Shown one piece after another: positions 22,628 through 32,669 of a stretch of 64,000 nt of DNA. The notes below the pieces were generated by a model. That model searched no databases. It was not told the DNA's origin and was given only the letters and a program-made list of their open reading frames with translations. The position numbers were made by a program, and so were the translations under genes. How positions within the stretch are numbered: the stretch's first letter is position 1; each line of letters begins with the position of its first letter. This stretch comes from a virus, in IMG/VR virus record IMGVR_UViG_3300037882_003354, positions 62,001 to 126,000 of that record. The stretch is one strand, 5' to 3'.

Positions 22628-22885
22628 TCATGCAGGTGATTCCGTGGTTTTTGGGAGTAAAATTTCTTCCACCAACTGCACCACTCCACGCACATTGTAA
22701 ATTTTACTGGCCCGGTGTTCTGGCAACTGTATGTTGAAGTGATCTTCCACCACCAGAACCAGTTCCATGTAGTCCAGACTGTCCAAGCCTAGATTTCGTT
22801 TGAAATGGCTGTCCATGGTGACTGAATCTTCGCGCATGCGCAATTCCCTGGCTATAACTTGTATGATCTGCTGTTCAATGTTCAT
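22628..22885 (-). CDS. Acyl carrier protein, 85 aa
   Basis: This is a full-length type II acyl carrier protein. It has an acidic four-helix layout, and LGLDSLDYMELV places Ser36 as the 4'-phosphopantetheine attachment site; helix III follows (EHRASKIYNVRGVVQLVEE). It would need a host phosphopantetheinyl transferase. Its ATG directly follows the TAA of the di-iron gene (TAAATG), so the two are translationally coupled. ACP carries acyl or aminoacyl groups as thioesters, so the partner probably acts on an ACP-bound substrate. Phage-encoded ACPs are rare. An E. coli-like acpP role in replacing host ACP is less likely because of the specific partner. Confidence 0.9.
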   Translation of the reverse strand: MNIEQQIIQVIARELRMREDSVTMDSHFKRNLGLDSLDYMELVLVVEDHFNIQLPEHRASKIYNVRGVVQLVEEILLPKTTESPA

Positions 22886-23668
22886 TTATGTCTTGATGTA
22901 ATTTAATAGTATGCTGTGATCACGGTGATCAGGGTGCCAGTCTGGGCGCATGAATTCCAGCACGGCACAGGTGACTGTCCAGAACACACCACATTGACGG
23001 TCAAACAACACGGCAACTGCATCCTTGAGTGTGCGCCATTTCCACAACTGGCCATCTGATCGCAGGAATATCACGGTGTTTTTCATCACATGGTACATGT
23101 AACACACGTAAACCAACAACATGACCCATCTTCTGTGATTGACACCGCCATCCACCAGTTGCCATACGTTCATGGCCACTGACTTGTGCTCGATTTCTTC
23201 CACGGCGTGCCAGCGCCAGATGGTTTCAAAATGTGGATGCATGCGGCGCAGAGCAGTTCTGTATCTCAGCAGGTATTCTGCATTGACTGCTGTCATGTGC
23301 TCAATGCACACAGTGGCGGTCAAACACACGCGATCGCTCCAACGTGTGCGTAGATGGGACCAAAATTTGTGCTGTCGCTGGGCCGCAGCCTGTGCCGGTA
23401 ATCCCTGCTGCTCCAGCCATTGTGTGTACTGTGCATGCACATGACCGTGCCAATTTTCCTGTTTGACAAAGGTATTGAAATCCACCAACTGCGCAGGATC
23501 TGTCACAGCGTGCCGATAGGCCTTGAGTGAATCTATGAAGAATCGTTCCCCGTCAGGAAAGTTTATATTCAGGGAATTCAACCAGTGTGTTTTGAATGGG
23601 CTGCCATCATTCCAATAATATGGAAGTTCTTGATCCCAATCTAATTTCAGTGGCTGTGACGTAAACAT
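22886..23668 (-). CDS. Ferritin-like di-iron enzyme (PF10118 'metal-dependent hydrolase' family), 260 aa
   Basis: The family pattern is clear: FVKQENWHGHVHAQY supplies the first E and H ligands, VCIEHMTAV the next, and WRWHAVEEIEHKSVAMNVW the E-E-x-E-H cluster of a four-helix di-iron core. The family is annotated as metal-dependent hydrolase, but its fold and ligands are those of di-iron oxygenases or desaturases. A hydrophobic stretch near residue 185 (WVMLLVYVCYMYHVM) may contact membrane or lipid. It is coupled to the downstream ACP gene, so a reaction on acyl-ACP (oxidation, hydroxylation or desaturation) is a reasonable inference. A GATAAATA motif lies only 5 nt before the start. Confidence 0.8.
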   Translation of the reverse strand: MFTSQPLKLDWDQELPYYWNDGSPFKTHWLNSLNINFPDGERFFIDSLKAYRHAVTDPAQLVDFNTFVKQENWHGHVHAQYTQWLEQQGLPAQAAAQRQHKFWSHLRTRWSDRVCLTATVCIEHMTAVNAEYLLRYRTALRRMHPHFETIWRWHAVEEIEHKSVAMNVWQLVDGGVNHRRWVMLLVYVCYMYHVMKNTVIFLRSDGQLWKWRTLKDAVAVLFDRQCGVFWTVTCAVLEFMRPDWHPDHRDHSILLNYIKT

Positions 23669-23678
23669 CAGATATTTA

Positions 23679-24446
23679 TCATGGATTATTCACTGATGTG
23701 ATGATCCAGAAATCTGAACTCATGCTGGTATTCTGCACCACTTGGTAGGGCATGTAGAAGTAACCGCGGTCACCCCAGCCGGTGCCCCAGGAATTTCTTG
23801 CTATGAATTGCTGAGTGCTGTCTCGATAACCCACCAGGGCCACCGCATGTCCCCCCAGCAACCGTTCTGTTTGAACATTGGGGTAGGGCATTTGTCCTGT
23901 ACGTGCCACCGCCAGGGTTTGAAAACTTGAATACACATTGAATCCCATGACCACAGGGTATCCCTGCGCCAGGGCTGTCTTGACTCCATCAAAGTCGGTT
24001 ATGCGACGATAGGCACCCACTCGTCGTTTGAGAGCGTCTTTGTATGCTGCCGCGCTGGGCTTGATGGCGAACCTGCCAATGATATAAGGCCACAGGCTTT
24101 CCAAGGGTGCACCAAATTTGTTCACAGCCTTGATGCCGTCTCGCAGGTAGGCGCCACTGTCATAGTTCACTGTGCCGTACAGCAACCGCTCCTGGTAATA
24201 GATGAACAGTCGGCTGACGTCCAGATTCTTCTTGGCTTTACGATTGAGGTATTCAACTAGTCCAGCAATGGCCTGGCCAGTGCATGATCCCAACTGCCCT
24301 TGGTTTTCTATGGGGCTGCATCCCGGTCTTAAATCCACCAGCGCAGGTAATGCCAATTGCGGTGCAGCATACAAGTAATCCCTGGCATCTGGTGGATCTG
24401 GACGCCAGTGTAATCGGGGTATGGTTATATTAGTTGGACGTGGCAT
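23679..24446 (-). CDS. Papain-like (C1A) cysteine protease, 255 aa
   Basis: The ATG at 24446 (MPRPTNITIP) has AGGA 8 nt upstream; the earlier TTG at 24473 lacks support. The catalytic residues are visible: Gln49 and Cys55 in ENQGQLGSCTG, His200 in LLGGHAVALVGY, and Asn218 in ARNSWGTGWGDRGYF. The short N-terminal part ends PPDARDYLY, like bacterial and viral C1A proteases that lack a long propeptide. No signal peptide is seen. Located between fibre genes, it may process virion proteins or be carried in the particle to attack host proteins. Family call is strong. Confidence 0.9.
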   Translation of the reverse strand: MPRPTNITIPRLHWRPDPPDARDYLYAAPQLALPALVDLRPGCSPIENQGQLGSCTGQAIAGLVEYLNRKAKKNLDVSRLFIYYQERLLYGTVNYDSGAYLRDGIKAVNKFGAPLESLWPYIIGRFAIKPSAAAYKDALKRRVGAYRRITDFDGVKTALAQGYPVVMGFNVYSSFQTLAVARTGQMPYPNVQTERLLGGHAVALVGYRDSTQQFIARNSWGTGWGDRGYFYMPYQVVQNTSMSSDFWIITSVNNP

Positions 24447-24505
24447 GTGTTTTTTCCTGGGTTGACTGTGCAAAAATCATTATAAGATTGTGAATAAGAT
24501 TTACG

Positions 24506-27500
24506 TCATTGTATGCTTACCAAATCAACATCCAACCTTTCTAACTTGTTGTGCACATAATCACTAATATATTCAGCGGTATACTGTGCAGGTTGTTCTT
24601 GTAGACGTAATCCTGAGATGTATTTGGGATCAATGTTGGCAAATTCTTCTAAAGATCTCAACGCTCTGTTGTCCTTGACAAACTTCATATCCCGAATAGG
24701 ATAGATGTTGTTAAATCTATTGCTGGTCAATATGCCTTGAGCAAACAGATTCAAGTGATACTGGGTCCATACGTTGTAAAACTTTACAGGTTCTTCAATA
24801 GTTTCTTTGGAAATCAGTGTGACTTCTTCACCCTGTTCATTAAATGTAATAGTTCCCACTGGCGTGGTATCTCTAACCAACATGGTAAACGCACCTGCTT
24901 GTTTATTAAACACATGGTGTCCCACTGTGCGTAACACAGTTCCATCACTGAATGTAAATCGATAGTGTTTGTCATGTGTTTCTTCCTGTTTAACAAACAC
25001 TGGCAATGCTTCGCTAAACTCACCCAAGTCAAAGTTCCATACACGAAGTAAATCATTGTACCTAACGTCCTCAATGGCTTTATATGAACCGTCAGCCATG
25101 GTGACCATGGTACCTTCGACCAGGCAAACCACACTCCATGCTCCTGTGTAGATATTACTAGTACATCCATTGAGTCCCGAGTCAATGGTTATTTGGGTAG
25201 TCAAATCACTCCCACTGCCATATAACCCAAGATCGGGCGATGTATATGTATTAGCACCAGGATTGACTGTCAGGGTGTGAGGGCCGCTAAATTCTCCGCC
25301 GCTGAACCATTCAAAGAAAATAGTACCTGTCGTGGATGTTGAAACAGTGGACGTAAAATCAACAGTTGCTGCCCTACTTTCAAAACCCACTGACACGTTG
25401 GTTATTGTCATAGTTGCCGGCACAATCACTGGCACATCAACACTTGTGGTCACACCGTTATTGGTGGTAACACGAGCAGTGGCGTCAACAGTTGGCGCAA
25501 CTGATCCCAAGAACAGTCGAGTATTTGCATCAACAGTATATGTTGTTGTGGGTATAAATGGTGCCAGATACTTGGCCGTGTTGCTGATTCTAACTAAAGA
25601 CATCTTACCGCTTAAGGTGCCACCGTTTGCTGGACCCAGTCGACCTATACGCAATGGGTCTACAGAGTTGGTATAACTGGCTGTGCCAAATGTACCACTA
25701 ACCTTGGTCTGTTCAATACCATTGTACCAGACCGTTTGTGTGCTTGCGTTGTTGACTATGGCCACATGCGTCCATACACCTGGAGTAGGTTCGGTGTATC
25801 GGACATCTTCGTTAGCGCCACTACCTGATAAGAATACCAGTTTGTTATCGCTCAATGCCACAACCACGGCGTTGGTGGTACTCCAGCCCACTTGGTTTAA
25901 TAATCCCCAGATGCCGCCACCCGCTGTATCTGATGCGGCATTGGCTTTGAGCCAGAACTCTATGGTCCAAGTTGTGCCCAGATTAAACGGAGCATTTGCA
26001 GGGTCATACAGGCTGTAGTTTTCGTCCATGTATAAATTGTCTGCCAACTTTGGAGCCCAGGTCAGGTCCCAGGTTGTGCCACCATCTGAGACGCCTGTGA
26101 GCGTTACTTGATAGGGTACACCAGTCCCCTGTTGGCCAACGAGTATCCAGCCCACTTGTGGTTCTGGATAACTGCCTTTGAGGATATCACCACCTGATAT
26201 AGTGCCGCTCCACGCATGACTGGTGGCGGTGCCCAGCGCGGTGTAACTTGGCTGTGCCACTGATAGGTAATCGTTTTCACTATTTACAAACTGTAGACTT
26301 TGATAACTTGGAAAGTCATTGCTGATCACTGCTCCATTATTGGTAATAGAATGTCTAGCACCACTGAAGTTGTATGGACCAGGAGTGGGCACATTAGTAA
26401 CTGGTACTCCCCAATTGTCAGGATCTGCTGAGACTACTGCTCCAGTGACAGTTGCGGTAGTTGATGTGTTTAATGAACTTACTATATCTCCTGCCTTTAT
26501 TTGATTATTTAAATTGGGATATGTTGACTTAGAGAAATACATGGTATCTAAATTATTAGTAAATATCGATACTTCATTCAACTCATAATTAGATAGATCG
26601 GTCAGCGGACTATCACTGCCCAACATCAGTCGAGTGTCTGCGCCAGCACCATAGGACAACGATGGGCTAAAGTTTGCCAGATACGTGGCTGTGTTGCTGA
26701 CTCGGATCATGGCCAGTTTACCAAGGAAGCCTTGCCCGTTCACTCCTAGTCTACGGCCAATGTTTACATCCGATGATCCATCACTTAATGCGCCTGGGCT
26801 TACTATGGTTCCCTGATGTACTCCATTATAGTATACCTTGGTGTCACCACCCCCATTGGCCACATAGGCCACATGGTTCCATATTCCCGGTGTGGGTTCA
26901 GGAATTCCGCTCTGTTGGACATTTCTGAACAGCGTGCTTCCATACATAAATCCTAAATCTATCTTGCCAGCGTCCGGACCTTGTGACATCACAGTTCGTA
27001 TGTTGCTGGTGCTGGCATTGGTTTGTTTGCTCCAGAACTCAACGGTGTATGTTGTGCCCAGGTTCCAATCAGCTTGTGTGTTGGATACCAATAGATATGG
27101 ATTTCCTGCTGGGAAGTCTAGACTAAATGGGGCCACTAGTGATAGACTGGTGTCGTTGATGGTGACTGAAGTGCTGGTGCTTAATATTGTGCCGCTGGTG
27201 CTAGCCGAACGCAGGGCAACCGTGAATGTCTCACTGCCTTCAGTGGTAGTATCAGCAGTGGGTGTTACTGAGAATGAACCGCTATTGCTGGTAATGCTGA
27301 ATGATCCAAATGTTGTACCAAAATCACCCGTGTTGGTTTGAACAGTCCAATAATACGTTCCGTTGACAATGTTTGTACCTGTGACATTAAATGTTATTGC
27401 TGAACCTTCGTTAGTGCTGGTTGTTGCTGGTGTTAAAGTATACAGGGGTGGTGGGGGAGGGGGAGGTGTATAACCACCACTGGACGCAATGGCTCCCGCT

Positions 27501-27520
27501 AATGTTTGAACAATGCTCAT
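24506..27520 (-). CDS. Fibre protein with Calx-beta, two LamG domains and a C-terminal Hint domain, 1004 aa
   Basis: After a start with a seven-proline run (residues 19-25), residues 28-135 form a Calx-beta-like domain (STNEGSAITFNVTG, TTEGSETFTVAL). Two LamG/concanavalin domains follow (about 135-295 and 500-670), each with SLVRISNTAKYLA-type ends. A beta region leads to a Hint (Hedgehog/intein) domain at about 799-935: C799 in CLVEGTMVTMADG, TVGHHVF as block B, and YHLNLFAQGILTSNR at the end. About 70 residues follow. Hint domains self-cleave. The final Asn is followed by Arg rather than Cys, Ser or Thr, so cleavage rather than splicing is expected. AAGGA lies 8 nt before the ATG. Confidence 0.85.
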   Translation of the reverse strand: MSIVQTLAGAIASSGGYTPPPPPPPLYTLTPATTSTNEGSAITFNVTGTNIVNGTYYWTVQTNTGDFGTTFGSFSITSNSGSFSVTPTADTTTEGSETFTVALRSASTSGTILSTSTSVTINDTSLSLVAPFSLDFPAGNPYLLVSNTQADWNLGTTYTVEFWSKQTNASTSNIRTVMSQGPDAGKIDLGFMYGSTLFRNVQQSGIPEPTPGIWNHVAYVANGGGDTKVYYNGVHQGTIVSPGALSDGSSDVNIGRRLGVNGQGFLGKLAMIRVSNTATYLANFSPSLSYGAGADTRLMLGSDSPLTDLSNYELNEVSIFTNNLDTMYFSKSTYPNLNNQIKAGDIVSSLNTSTTATVTGAVVSADPDNWGVPVTNVPTPGPYNFSGARHSITNNGAVISNDFPSYQSLQFVNSENDYLSVAQPSYTALGTATSHAWSGTISGGDILKGSYPEPQVGWILVGQQGTGVPYQVTLTGVSDGGTTWDLTWAPKLADNLYMDENYSLYDPANAPFNLGTTWTIEFWLKANAASDTAGGGIWGLLNQVGWSTTNAVVVALSDNKLVFLSGSGANEDVRYTEPTPGVWTHVAIVNNASTQTVWYNGIEQTKVSGTFGTASYTNSVDPLRIGRLGPANGGTLSGKMSLVRISNTAKYLAPFIPTTTYTVDANTRLFLGSVAPTVDATARVTTNNGVTTSVDVPVIVPATMTITNVSVGFESRAATVDFTSTVSTSTTGTIFFEWFSGGEFSGPHTLTVNPGANTYTSPDLGLYGSGSDLTTQITIDSGLNGCTSNIYTGAWSVVCLVEGTMVTMADGSYKAIEDVRYNDLLRVWNFDLGEFSEALPVFVKQEETHDKHYRFTFSDGTVLRTVGHHVFNKQAGAFTMLVRDTTPVGTITFNEQGEEVTLISKETIEEPVKFYNVWTQYHLNLFAQGILTSNRFNNIYPIRDMKFVKDNRALRSLEEFANIDPKYISGLRLQEQPAQYTAEYISDYVHNKLERLDVDLVSIQ

Positions 27521-27529
27521 TGTTGATCC

Positions 27530-30500
27530 TTAATCGTTGTCGTAAATGTCAGCACCAGCAACCATCCAAACGTCACCGTCGTTTTCACTATCGTCTGAAC
27601 GTGTGCCTTCTCTGATCTTGATTAAGGTAATCATTTGTCCACTACCGTTGTCTGGGAATCGAATCCACTGAGTTTTGGTATCGCCTCCTGACAACCACAT
27701 CTCGCCTCGAAGGCCGTCATTTTCACATTCTACATAAGCATCGTTGTTGCTGATGTTGACCAAGGTCACAGTATATCCCACGGGCAGTGTGACTCGTTCC
27801 CAGTTGGGAATAATCACATCATAGTTACTGTCTTCAATAAGAATATGTCTGCCTGAATCTTCAGGACGTAGCATATAACGACCAGCACTGATTCTCACCT
27901 GCGGTACAATGGCTGTGCTGAATGTCTGACGACTACCATCGGCAAACTCAACAGCACCGCCTTGGTTGCTCCGGATCACCTGTGGATAGAATGTGAAGTC
28001 ATAGTCAGGATAGTCAGTGTAGTAATATTTCACGTTGTCCACGCTGGTAATACCACCAGTATGCTCTGTGGCAGTAAATGCGGTCGATGTTCTACCACTC
28101 AGTCTCCAAACTTGGATTCTCTCATCGTCAAGTTCCGCATAGGTCCATAAACCGTGTAGGCCAACGCCCGTGCCGTCCAATGGCAGTGTGACAATGAACG
28201 CATTGTTATCATTGTCATCATTTGGAGCATCAGTAAAGCCCACCAAGGTAAACTGGTCACCGTGTATACTCAGGGCCTTGTTGCCATAACCCTGATAGCA
28301 CATTTGCGTGTCACTTTCATGAACGCCAAATAGACGCTTCCAAATGACTTCTCCATCAGTGTCTAGTTTGACAATCGCAATGGCCTGATCGTTAACCAAA
28401 TCACTACCGTCATCGTGTTCACAAGCAATTACAATCTCATCTGTGGCAGGATCCACTGCCACACTGATGTTGCTTTCTGGACTTCGCCACTGGCCATTAC
28501 CGTTTTTATAACCAATGAACTGTTGCCATATGATGTTTAGACTGCTGTCTAACTTGGTGACCAACACTTCGTCAGTCTCATCATGGTCCTGGTTATACTG
28601 ATCGTGAACTACCACAATTGAGTCGTTGGCCATCAGGGCCACTGCTCCTCGATTGGCAGAGTTGTTGCCCAGGTTGTTGTTGAGGAACTTGCTGGCTACC
28701 AATGTGCCTGTGCTGGAAAACTTGACCACCAGAGCTTGGTCATAGTTGACTTCATAGGTGCCTTGACCCACGGCATACAAGTGTGTGCCAGCCGCGTTCC
28801 AAACAACACCAGTGAAAGCATCGTCGGTTATGCCACCAATGGCCTTGGTAAAGTCCGGAGTCCAAACAAATGCCTCCCCATCCATGTTCTGCTTGATGGC
28901 AAATGTTGTGCCGGTTGCAGCATAGTCAACACTGGCATCGGTGGTTAACTGTAGGTGTGTTGATGCATGTGTGCCAGTTGAAGTGTCAATGTCTATAATC
29001 GCGCCGCCGGCGCCATCAGCATTGGTAACTGTTACGGTGATATTATTAGCAGGTGCTGTGCCACCAGCAAAACTTGTTCCTAGAATGGTAATAACATCAC
29101 CAGTAACATAGTCTTCACCAACAGTGGCAACTTGGGTACTGCTAACGGTTCCAGTAGTTGGATCAAAGTTTATATTGAATACCGCTCCAATACCAGTTAG
29201 ATAGTTGGTGCCTGTTACCAATGTGTATTGCGTAGATGTACCAGTTGAAGTTCCACTGTTGCTCACACTACTTATAGCACCCGAAGTTGAAGCGTCCACT
29301 GTAATGATACAATCGTTAGTACCATCCACTCCACCCAGTGCCGAACCTAATACTTTGATCTTGTGTCCTACTAGATAGTCTGTACCGCTGTTAGTAATTG
29401 CCGTGACAGAGTAAGAGCCGGTACTGATAACTTCATATGTGATTGACTGCGGCACTTCGTTTAATCCCTCAGTACCAGAAGCCCATACTCCAGTCCAAAT
29501 CACATCCACTCCTGTGTTAGTTGTTTTGTTATTAGTTGTGAATGTCTGAGGGCCACCACCTGTAATAACTGTGAATACTGTTCCGGTAGACAGGGCTTCA
29601 AAAGTATCGTAGTCAGTACCAATATTCCAATCTGCCTTGGTGGCTGTGATAGTAGCAACGCCGGGTTCTCCCACAACACTTAGACCAACTCCGAATGAAG
29701 TCGATGTATAAGTAGTACTGGTACTAGTCCCAGTTTTATCAATGGTGAACACTGCACCACTACCCTGTTTAACTGTGCCAGTCGATCCTGTATATTGGTT
29801 TACCGTCTGAACTCGAATCTGGTCAGTGATACCAGTGCCAGTAATCCACCAGTCACTAATACTGCTGCCGCCCGGAATATCTTCCCCTGGAAAGTGTTCA
29901 GCATCAATGTCTGCCTTGGTAACCCAAAGTTTATCTACCGCACTGCCCGCCAATGGAGTAATAGTACCGTATTCTGTGTATTCGTTGAACTTTTCACCCA
30001 CAACAGCAATCTTACCAGTAACACTGACATCAGTGTCGATAGCGTAGACATCACCTTCATCTTTAAGCGTAGTTGTGCTGACCACTGCGCCTGAACCTGA
30101 ATCCATGGTTACGATCACTGTTTCTGACCAGTTGCCGTCAAGGTTAAACATGTCAGAGTCACCCAACTCTGTTGAAGTTATGATGATGACCTCAAGGTTG
30201 CCAGAGACTGGATTGTAGGTCATTGACCTTATTTCGCATTCCGCGTCGTCATTATAGTCTTGAACGGAGGTATATGTATTTGAATGGCCAACTGCGCCGG
30301 TGCCGCTGTCAATAGTAACTGTGGCTACTTCTCCAACATAGTCATTAGCATTGGTAATAGTTGCTACTTCTAACACCAGTGTATTACTGGCATCTCCTCC
30401 AAGATCCTCACCATCGATAAGGATCCTATCACCCACTTTATAGTTATTGCCGCCATAGGTCACTATGGGAGTAGCATAGGTGCCGGTTGTAACCGTCACA

Positions 30501-32446
30501 GTGAACTCAGCACCCGAACCGCTGAATAGTTCTCTCTGCCATACTACCGCACCTTCTGGGGTAAATTTATAAATGTAGGCGCGGTCTCCGTCAAACCAGT
30601 TACTGCCCACGGCATAGGCAAAACCTTCAGCATCGTGACATACACTTTCAAACCAAATGTCACTGCTTGTGTTAGGGAACCTGCCGTACATGGTGGCGTA
30701 GCCCAACTGACGTTGTTGCAGTCGAATGTCAGCATCTGCTGGTGCTGTAAATGTGCCGTCCTTGCCAAATGTCCAGGTGTTGACCCGACTGGCTGTGCGT
30801 CTCACACTGACACTCACTGCCTGTGTGGCGATACTGGCCGTGCCGCCTTCAGTCATGGCAATATCATTTTGTAGAGACACTGGACCGTTGACTGCCACCA
30901 GAGTGTTGGTCAATCTGCCGGGAATACGGCTTGTTGACAGTGTCCAACCATCTGCTATGAATTTGGTGGCATCGGTGTCAAACTGTGCCAAGAAGCCTTG
31001 ATTAAAGTATTTTTCGTAGCTCCACGGTGCGTCAAGATCTGCGTCACTTTGGCCAAGTCTTACCGCACCACCAATAAGAATCTTCCCGTCTTGTACAGCC
31101 ATTAAGTCTGTGGCGACTCCGCCAAATGGACCATCGTTACCATATCCTGGAACTTCTTGTGCCAACGGATTGTCAAAATAACTTTGCCAAATCACAGCAC
31201 CTGTGGTCTTGTTGTATCGGGCCAAGGCCAATCGATTGGTGTAATAGCCTGCATCACTACCTTCTACTTCGGACAGGGGGTTTAATTCGTAGGTGCTGGC
31301 GTATAGATATAGATCACCGTCGTCGCCCACTGCGGTGCTGACACCAACCCAATCACACGCTCCTGGACCAACTCTACGATCCCAGGCCATGGCACCCAGT
31401 GTGGTCATCTTGAATAAGACAACAGCATTGCTTTTACCTGAAGAAACAAAATTGTCGCCTGGGTTGTCCACATAATATGTGCCGGCAACATAGATGTTGC
31501 CAATTGAGTCGAGACTTAGATTCCAGGCCTCACCAAAAGGTGTGTCATTTTCCAGTCTCACTGACTTTTGCCAACCCGATCCGCCAAGGGCAGTGATCTT
31601 GGCCACTAACATTTCGTCGTTTGTAGCAGTGGCTCCGTTGACTGTGCGTTCAACTTCAGCTTTGCCCACCGCAACGATGTCGTCATTGAAATCAACTGCC
31701 ACTGAGTAAATGCTTGAGGCACCGCTGTCAACAGTCAAAGACTTTTGCCAAGTGATGTCAGTGGCAGTAGGGTTCAGTTTGGCCACAAACGCGGTAGTAG
31801 TTGCGGCGCTGGTGAAATAAAAGTCGCCACCAATGATGATGTTGTTGCCACTGTCAACTGCCATGGCCCGGATCTCGAAATTGCTGGCCAAGTTCAATTC
31901 TTCACTGAATACAACAGCACCAGTGTCACCGTTGAGTTTAACAATGATCTTAGTGGTACCACTGTCTGGATTTACCACAAGCAAGATGTTATCAGCACTG
32001 TCAATCACAGCATTGCTTTCTGGGTAGAAGCCATTGTCGACAGCATCTATGCTTTTCTTCCAAACCAAGTGACCTGCTGGTGTAAACTTGGCAACTGCCA
32101 CACCGTCATCGTTTAGATTGAGTCGAGCAACAACAATGGCGTTGCCCAGACTGTCGTAGTTGGTGCTATAGACTGTGACACCTTTAGTGGCAACTGGGTT
32201 GCTGCTGTCTTCTCTACGCAGTCGAACCAACCAACGATCCGCATCGCCAGTTTGAACTGTGATAGCACCGTCACTGGCCAGATCATCGCCAACACCGTAT
32301 TCAAGTGAATTCCAACGGCTGGTACCGTCACCATACTTGATCTTGCCAGTGTCGGTTTCTAAACCTGGTTCACCAGCCGCCAGTATGGGATTGACACTGG
32401 TCCAGTTGGCCTCTGTGTCTCTGCGTAGTTTAATTCGTGTTGCCAT
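27530..32446 (-). CDS. Giant beta-propeller-type tail fibre, 1638 aa
   Basis: I start at the ATG giving MATRIKLRRDTEANW, with GGAG 7 nt upstream. The first 50 residues (LAAGEPGLETDTGKIKYGDG) are the short attachment domain found at the start of many phage receptor-binding proteins (Mtd N-terminal type). Repeats with alternating phrases like NIYVAGTYY, LVAKITA and GWQKSV over residues 90-480, and again at 1230-1480, look like propeller blades. The middle (about 700-1230) has Thr/Gly-rich repeats (AVFNINFDPTTGTVSS type). It is the largest protein in the window and probably binds the host receptor. No catalytic motif was seen. Confidence 0.8.
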   Translation of the reverse strand: MATRIKLRRDTEANWTSVNPILAAGEPGLETDTGKIKYGDGTSRWNSLEYGVGDDLASDGAITVQTGDADRWLVRLRREDSSNPVATKGVTVYSTNYDSLGNAIVVARLNLNDDGVAVAKFTPAGHLVWKKSIDAVDNGFYPESNAVIDSADNILLVVNPDSGTTKIIVKLNGDTGAVVFSEELNLASNFEIRAMAVDSGNNIIIGGDFYFTSAATTTAFVAKLNPTATDITWQKSLTVDSGASSIYSVAVDFNDDIVAVGKAEVERTVNGATATNDEMLVAKITALGGSGWQKSVRLENDTPFGEAWNLSLDSIGNIYVAGTYYVDNPGDNFVSSGKSNAVVLFKMTTLGAMAWDRRVGPGACDWVGVSTAVGDDGDLYLYASTYELNPLSEVEGSDAGYYTNRLALARYNKTTGAVIWQSYFDNPLAQEVPGYGNDGPFGGVATDLMAVQDGKILIGGAVRLGQSDADLDAPWSYEKYFNQGFLAQFDTDATKFIADGWTLSTSRIPGRLTNTLVAVNGPVSLQNDIAMTEGGTASIATQAVSVSVRRTASRVNTWTFGKDGTFTAPADADIRLQQRQLGYATMYGRFPNTSSDIWFESVCHDAEGFAYAVGSNWFDGDRAYIYKFTPEGAVVWQRELFSGSGAEFTVTVTTGTYATPIVTYGGNNYKVGDRILIDGEDLGGDASNTLVLEVATITNANDYVGEVATVTIDSGTGAVGHSNTYTSVQDYNDDAECEIRSMTYNPVSGNLEVIIITSTELGDSDMFNLDGNWSETVIVTMDSGSGAVVSTTTLKDEGDVYAIDTDVSVTGKIAVVGEKFNEYTEYGTITPLAGSAVDKLWVTKADIDAEHFPGEDIPGGSSISDWWITGTGITDQIRVQTVNQYTGSTGTVKQGSGAVFTIDKTGTSTSTTYTSTSFGVGLSVVGEPGVATITATKADWNIGTDYDTFEALSTGTVFTVITGGGPQTFTTNNKTTNTGVDVIWTGVWASGTEGLNEVPQSITYEVISTGSYSVTAITNSGTDYLVGHKIKVLGSALGGVDGTNDCIITVDASTSGAISSVSNSGTSTGTSTQYTLVTGTNYLTGIGAVFNINFDPTTGTVSSTQVATVGEDYVTGDVITILGTSFAGGTAPANNITVTVTNADGAGGAIIDIDTSTGTHASTHLQLTTDASVDYAATGTTFAIKQNMDGEAFVWTPDFTKAIGGITDDAFTGVVWNAAGTHLYAVGQGTYEVNYDQALVVKFSSTGTLVASKFLNNNLGNNSANRGAVALMANDSIVVVHDQYNQDHDETDEVLVTKLDSSLNIIWQQFIGYKNGNGQWRSPESNISVAVDPATDEIVIACEHDDGSDLVNDQAIAIVKLDTDGEVIWKRLFGVHESDTQMCYQGYGNKALSIHGDQFTLVGFTDAPNDDNDNNAFIVTLPLDGTGVGLHGLWTYAELDDERIQVWRLSGRTSTAFTATEHTGGITSVDNVKYYYTDYPDYDFTFYPQVIRSNQGGAVEFADGSRQTFSTAIVPQVRISAGRYMLRPEDSGRHILIEDSNYDVIIPNWERVTLPVGYTVTLVNISNNDAYVECENDGLRGEMWLSGGDTKTQWIRFPDNGSGQMITLIKIREGTRSDDSENDGDVWMVAGADIYDND

Positions 32447-32465
32447 TACTCTGCTCCGATTATTT

Positions 32466-32669
32466 TTATGCTGTGCCGCCGTCCAACTCAATGTCTATCA
32501 GTGGATCGTATACTGACCCAGCGTACAGTCCATCCAGTGCATATAATGCCTGTTGAGTGGTCAAGGCCTGCTTTGCAGACCAGCGATCGCCAGTCCAGAT
32601 GTAGGTGACTGTATTGTCTGCTAGATAGTTCTGCCCCACTGCAGGGTTGACTGGGAAAATTATTGCCAT
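32466..32669 (-). CDS. Short fibre-base-like protein, 67 aa
   Basis: It consists almost only of the short motif MAIIFPVNPAVGQNYLADN followed by TYIWTGDRW, the same type of N-terminal attachment unit as in the genes at 19311 and 39007, and a short helix. A CATAAATA late motif and AGGA precede it. It may be an independent adaptor for fibres or the remains of a fibre that lost its shaft. Confidence 0.65.
   Translation of the reverse strand: MAIIFPVNPAVGQNYLADNTVTYIWTGDRWSAKQALTTQQALYALDGLYAGSVYDPLIDIELDGGTA

Follow-up and report, generated by a model that had tools for sequence, protein, structure and literature searches.

Coupling of an acyl carrier protein gene to a PF10118 ferritin-like diiron enzyme gene in large bacteriophages

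This analysis identified a conserved pair of genes in large phages, one encoding a predicted ferritin-like diiron enzyme of family PF10118 and the other an acyl carrier protein (ACP). The DNA analyzed (the window) is a stretch of 64,000 nucleotides, corresponding to bases 62001-126000 of a virus record 322,512 bases long, and the arrangement found there recurs in ten more non-identical viral contigs, which is far more than chance would produce. There is little doubt that the coupling is real, conserved and, within what was searched, confined to phages. Pairs of an ACP and a ferritin-like diiron protein are known from natural-product clusters; here, such a pair occurs in large phages and with a PF10118 enzyme. 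By analogy with the known pairs, the reading we lean toward is that of a late-expressed phage unit in which the PF10118 enzyme would oxidize an acyl chain tethered to the phage ACP. The features of the locus are as follows.

22886-23668, minus strand: predicted PF10118 ferritin-like diiron oxidase/oxygenase, 260 aa (from Pfam, a 67-member alignment, AlphaFold2, Foldseek, and AurF Pfam matches in relatives)
22628-22885, minus strand: ACP, 85 aa, with Ser36 in GLDSLD (from PF00550, TIGR00517 and phrog_5934)
23673-23679, minus strand: ATAAATA, a late-promoter-like element with its start 11 nt ahead of the enzyme ATG (consensus match only)
23679-24473, minus strand: papain-like protease gene, given as context and lying outside the conserved pair (Peptidase_C1, E 4.8e-15)

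The stop codon of the enzyme gene and the start codon of the ACP gene abut as TAAATG on the minus strand, with 0 bases between them, just as a preliminary description of this DNA had reported. This junction suggests that the two proteins are co-expressed, probably late and from a shared transcript. Profile searches found PF10118 and PF00550 once each in the 322-kb record, the remainder of which was sampled by family searches only.

The ATAAATA element resembles the late promoter of phage T4 (TATAAATA). In the window, and likewise at seven of the ten other paired loci, it begins 11-12 nt upstream of the enzyme ATG, against 0.11 expected among ten; it is not at that position in L012-L014. Most copies in the window (14/16) are on the minus strand, and nine tiled ORFs of the window have the element within 40 nt upstream. 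Given the virion and tail genes around the pair, late expression is the natural reading, and the short distance from the element to the enzyme ATG raises the possibility of a leaderless message. Also encoded in the window are a very long tail-type protein (27530-32491) with an N-terminal Mtd_N (major tropism determinant) domain (E 3.6e-14), and a LamG-domain protein (24506-27520), the C-terminal part of which on visual inspection resembles a Hint/intein-type domain (CLVEGTMVTMADGSYKAIEDV...), LamG being the only Pfam match.

In the 11 non-identical viral contigs (the window plus L009, L010, L011, L012, L013, L014, L019, L110, L111 and L113), the ACP gene lies directly downstream of the enzyme gene on the same strand, at a spacing of -4 nt (overlap) to about +14 nt. 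Identical enzymes were counted once, L112 and L116 being the same as L110, and L114 the same as L113. Searching independently with the ACP returned 19 viral loci, the best 11 of which were all enzyme-ACP pairs and the weaker eight were not. The gene neighborhoods of the pairs are of three unrelated types. In the first (L009-L011, L019, L110, L111 and L113/L114) the gene after the ACP belongs to one small family, f4, and, except in L009, the enzyme has a subtilisin-like protease before it in every contig that reaches that far. The second (L012-L014) has different neighbors on both sides, and the third is the window locus, with the papain-like protease upstream, which is absent beside the pairs of the other phages, and tail-type genes downstream. 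The proteases directly upstream of the enzyme are unrelated to each other, being papain-like C1 in the window (23679-24473) and subtilisin-like S8 in L010 (3421-4983). Coupling and conservation can be read directly from these sequences: the spacing of the pair is kept over about 50% protein divergence while the flanking genes change, and the retention of the pair in differing immediate surroundings argues for a joint function. The earlier proposal of a two-protein module is borne out to this extent. In all 11 pairs the enzyme has a positive net charge and the ACP a negative one, and the divergence of the two proteins is correlated (r 0.47, with 7 of 2000 permutations equally high), but both are weak evidence, acidity being usual among ACPs and parallel divergence being expected of genes inherited together.

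The ACP of the window matched PF00550 (E 7.1e-11, 42.6 bits versus a cutoff of 20.8), the NCBIfam acyl carrier protein model TIGR00517 (72.7 bits versus a cutoff of 70.45) and the acyl carrier protein family phrog_5934 (E 2.5e-15). It has the features by which a bacterial ACP is recognized, an above-cutoff match and a Ser in DSL (Ser36 in GLDSLD), and is complete, in agreement with the preliminary description. All 10 phage ACPs in the alignment share the predicted phosphopantetheine-site Ser. A search of 16 phage records gave no PPTase, so activation of the ACP would fall to the host, and family searches of the window's phage gave neither a PPTase nor a ketosynthase, SDR or AMP-ligase, so the host must also provide for substrate loading. 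In G015 (a 345-kb phage record whose pair is L110), at L126:5768-8742 and L124, genes for BKACE (beta-keto acid cleavage enzyme, E 2e-92), a FabG-like SDR and an AMP-binding ligase stand in a row with radical-SAM genes alongside, possibly forming a second acyl-metabolism cluster in the same phage.

The enzyme matched PF10118 (Metal_hydrol) over residues 7-250 (E 1.6e-65, 221.7 bits versus a cutoff of 33.2, profile positions 5-247 of 247). Residues E41, E71, H74, H78, E123, H124, W153, H154, E157, E158, H161 and P246 are invariant in 67 relatives. The predicted metal site has the order E41 ... Q70-E71-x-x-H74 ... E123 ... H154-x-x-E157-E158-x-x-H161, in which Q70 is nearly invariant and the other residues invariant across the 67 members, all of which have HxxEExxH. 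The ligand motifs proposed at the outset (ENWHGHVH, CIEH and EEIEH) are real, but that list lacked Glu41 of helix 1 and the AurF-type His154, both of which belong to the ligand set as they are invariant in the 67 relatives. The AlphaFold2 model (67 sequences) is all-helical, with a pLDDT of 93.5 and a pTM of 0.90. At the top of a Foldseek comparison with the PDB stood R2-like ligand-binding oxidases, with a probability of 1.00 but a TM of about 0.50, 12% identity and E 0.014 at best, and lower in the list were CmlI (TM 0.51), aldehyde-deformylating oxygenase and stearoyl-ACP desaturase (TM 0.33); every structural neighbor is a ferritin-like oxidase or oxygenase, all at E-values above 0.01. The Glu / ExxH / Glu / ExxH pattern of ferritin-like diiron proteins is present (E41, E71xxH74, E123, E158xxH161) in what the model and Foldseek indicate is a four-helix bundle.

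When scanned singly, 20 of the 67 members matched PF11583 (AurF; best E 1.7e-6), eight matched rubrerythrin and seven COQ7, and PF10118 genes were likewise among the genome matches of the AurF model. The window protein itself gave no PF11583 match at E up to 1, no acyl-ACP desaturase family was among its Pfam matches at E up to 1, and hhalign of PF10118 against two AurF proteins only was not significant (E 0.085). Family and metal-site residues together with a confidently predicted fold point to a diiron protein of the ferritin-like kind whose metal site is of the AurF type, and the PF10118-type ferritin-like enzyme of the preliminary description stands. The label 'predicted metal-dependent hydrolase' was rejected as a statement of function, the ligands and predicted fold being those of a diiron oxidase. 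In open-access papers, neither a study supporting the hydrolase name of PF10118 nor any experimentally tested chemistry for the family was found.

Among known systems, CylC/CylB and NocO/NocM are cyanobacterial dimetal halogenases with partner ACPs (PMC12101540, PMC8406957); CylC chlorinates decanoyl-CylB and NocO chlorinates dodecanoyl-NocM, both chains being carried on the partner ACP (PMC12101540). The motifs of CylC-type halogenases are QExxH and HxxDExxH (PMC12101540). The phage pair likewise combines a ferritin-like diiron enzyme, with QExxH and HxxxExxH, and a dedicated ACP gene, and its QExxH, HxxEExxH, E41 and E123 closely match CylC/NocO in a comparison by described motifs only. Judged as a dimetal halogenase, it has QExxH and the neighboring ACP but lacks HxxDExxH, with E replacing the last D, and it further differs in its length of about 260 aa, its membership of PF10118, and in having no adjoining acyl-AMP ligase and no known halogenation. 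AurF and CmlI, arylamine N-oxygenases of PF11583, share the same order of metal-site residues, including the third His, and CmlI is among the structural neighbors. In AurF, Asp135 precedes the first-motif Glu and Asp226 is in the second motif (PMC12101540); in the phage enzyme Q70 replaces Asp135, and it differs also in its pairing with an ACP and, for the window protein, in the missing PF11583 match. R2-like ligand-binding oxidases, the top Foldseek neighbors, share the ferritin-like dimetal site, but the phage family has the extra His154 and the TM is about 0.50. To our knowledge, these oxidases have no ACP partner. Plant stearoyl-ACP desaturase is a ferritin-like diiron enzyme acting on acyl-ACP and appears in the Foldseek list, but only at TM 0.33, with no Pfam match and again differing by His154. 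Bacterial PF10118 proteins (Pseudomonas, Alcanivorax, Marinobacter, Myxococcota) are of the same family and have the same invariant metal-site residues; they differ in their gene neighborhoods, many adjoining an AraC-like regulator and some a second PF10118 copy. A phage pairing of ACP and diiron enzyme was not found described in open-access papers, in line with the initial statement that no such phage pathway was known.

Tree reconstruction (IQ-TREE) grouped the 20 phage enzymes into one clade (100/100), separate from bacterial PF10118, with the ACP-bearing enzymes forming a sub-clade (96/95) within it that also includes L018, the contig of which ends within the enzyme gene. A single gain of the ACP would suffice to explain this tree. 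A neighboring ACP was found at none of 110 bacterial PF10118 loci examined (the 80 nearest, with flanks up to 3 kb, and 30 from the phylum of a myxobacterial genome, with flanks of about 1.5 kb), nor adjacent to the enzyme in sister phages L002-L004, L115, L117-L119, L122 and further ones. About half of the phage homologs have no adjacent ACP, although most viral contigs are metagenomic fragments, and coverage was good enough to speak against an ACP at some other genomic position for the 331-kb L003 record only. The pair therefore looks like a phage acquisition in which the ACP was added in one phage lineage, and the enzyme in general appears to need no dedicated neighboring ACP. The preliminary description had held that the pairing would be coincidental if most homologs lacked an ACP neighbor and the predicted complex showed no ACP-binding surface. 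The outcome is mixed: the bacterial homologs examined and about half of those in phages do lack such a neighbor, but the pair has been kept in one phage clade despite large divergence and in three contexts.

Another set of phage contigs (L115, L117-L119, L122, L212, L213, L215-L218 and L222) has the PF10118 enzyme but no ACP. In one of these, L118, the enzyme adjoins a tail-collar-type gene, so it may have a phage role without a phage ACP. Matches labeled 'Acinetobacter phage MD-2021a' (CAKLQH02/CAKLQF02, L008) were not counted as phage, as they are apparently bacterial chromosome, with trp, accD and folC flanking the match in the one contig inspected; a Pseudomonas match was likewise not counted, being located beyond attR.

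How the unit might work can be sketched by analogy. The ACP would be loaded with phosphopantetheine by the host and would receive an acyl chain, probably from the host fatty-acid pool. The PF10118 protein would be a ferritin-like diiron oxidase/oxygenase that depends on O2 and has a metal site of the AurF/CylC type, and, as CylC and NocO act on ACP-tethered acyl chains, it would oxidize the chain on its own ACP, most likely by hydroxylation or desaturation, with halogenation a less likely alternative. From there the altered group might pass into host lipid or onto another acceptor. We infer the acyl-ACP substrate, the type of reaction and the destination of the product from this likeness. A tethered enzyme-ACP chain model (TAA read as Gln) gave a low-confidence ACP part, an artificial continuous helix and no interface, and was set aside as evidence on binding. 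More tentatively, large phages may carry a self-contained acyl-ACP oxidation system, making an acyl group foreign to the host, modified by hydroxylation, desaturation or halogenation, for late lipid remodeling, signaling or virion modification.

Other roles for the ACP deserve consideration. It might be a binding partner or stabilizer, solubilizing the enzyme or targeting it to the host fatty-acid machinery, while the substrate of the enzyme is a lipid, amine or small molecule in free form. CylC and NocO require their ACP for soluble production in E. coli (PMC12101540), AurF-type relatives oxidize free arylamines, and the enzyme occurs without an adjacent ACP in sister phages and bacteria, all of which fit this idea; a pure scaffold would, however, have no need of the phosphopantetheine Ser that is invariant in all aligned phage ACPs, and we regard this alternative as unlikely. 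Somewhat less likely again is that the ACP serves another pathway (lipid A, lipoate, lysophospholipid acylation or binding of a host regulator) and has nothing but the timing of expression in common with the enzyme. ACP genes occur without a PF10118 enzyme in Achromobacter phage Motura, Vibrio phage eugene 12A10 and Erythrobacter phage ZS04, which indicates that phage ACPs can have independent roles, but the ACP subfamily nearest to that of the window always adjoins the enzyme, with stop and start codons overlapping or adjacent even where the surroundings have been replaced. That the two genes are coincidental neighbors co-inherited by descent, as was suggested by a narrow viral search (three relatives, none with an ACP) that deeper profile searches overturned, is very improbable: a single gain and the many ACP-less relatives would allow it, but the close spacing has been kept over about 50% protein divergence with differing flanking genes, as have the active-site residues of both proteins.

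Most phage ACP genes known so far are orphans to which no partner has been assigned, whereas the ACP gene described here has a conserved genomic partner. What would otherwise be a vague auxiliary metabolic gene becomes a testable enzyme-carrier pair, and an operon of two genes lends itself to expression and assay. For PF10118, a bacterial family named as hydrolase, the metal site and profile similarity give a functional direction toward AurF-like diiron oxygenases. The presence of the pair in very large bacteriophages suggests that fatty acids may be altered during infection by a route not yet described.
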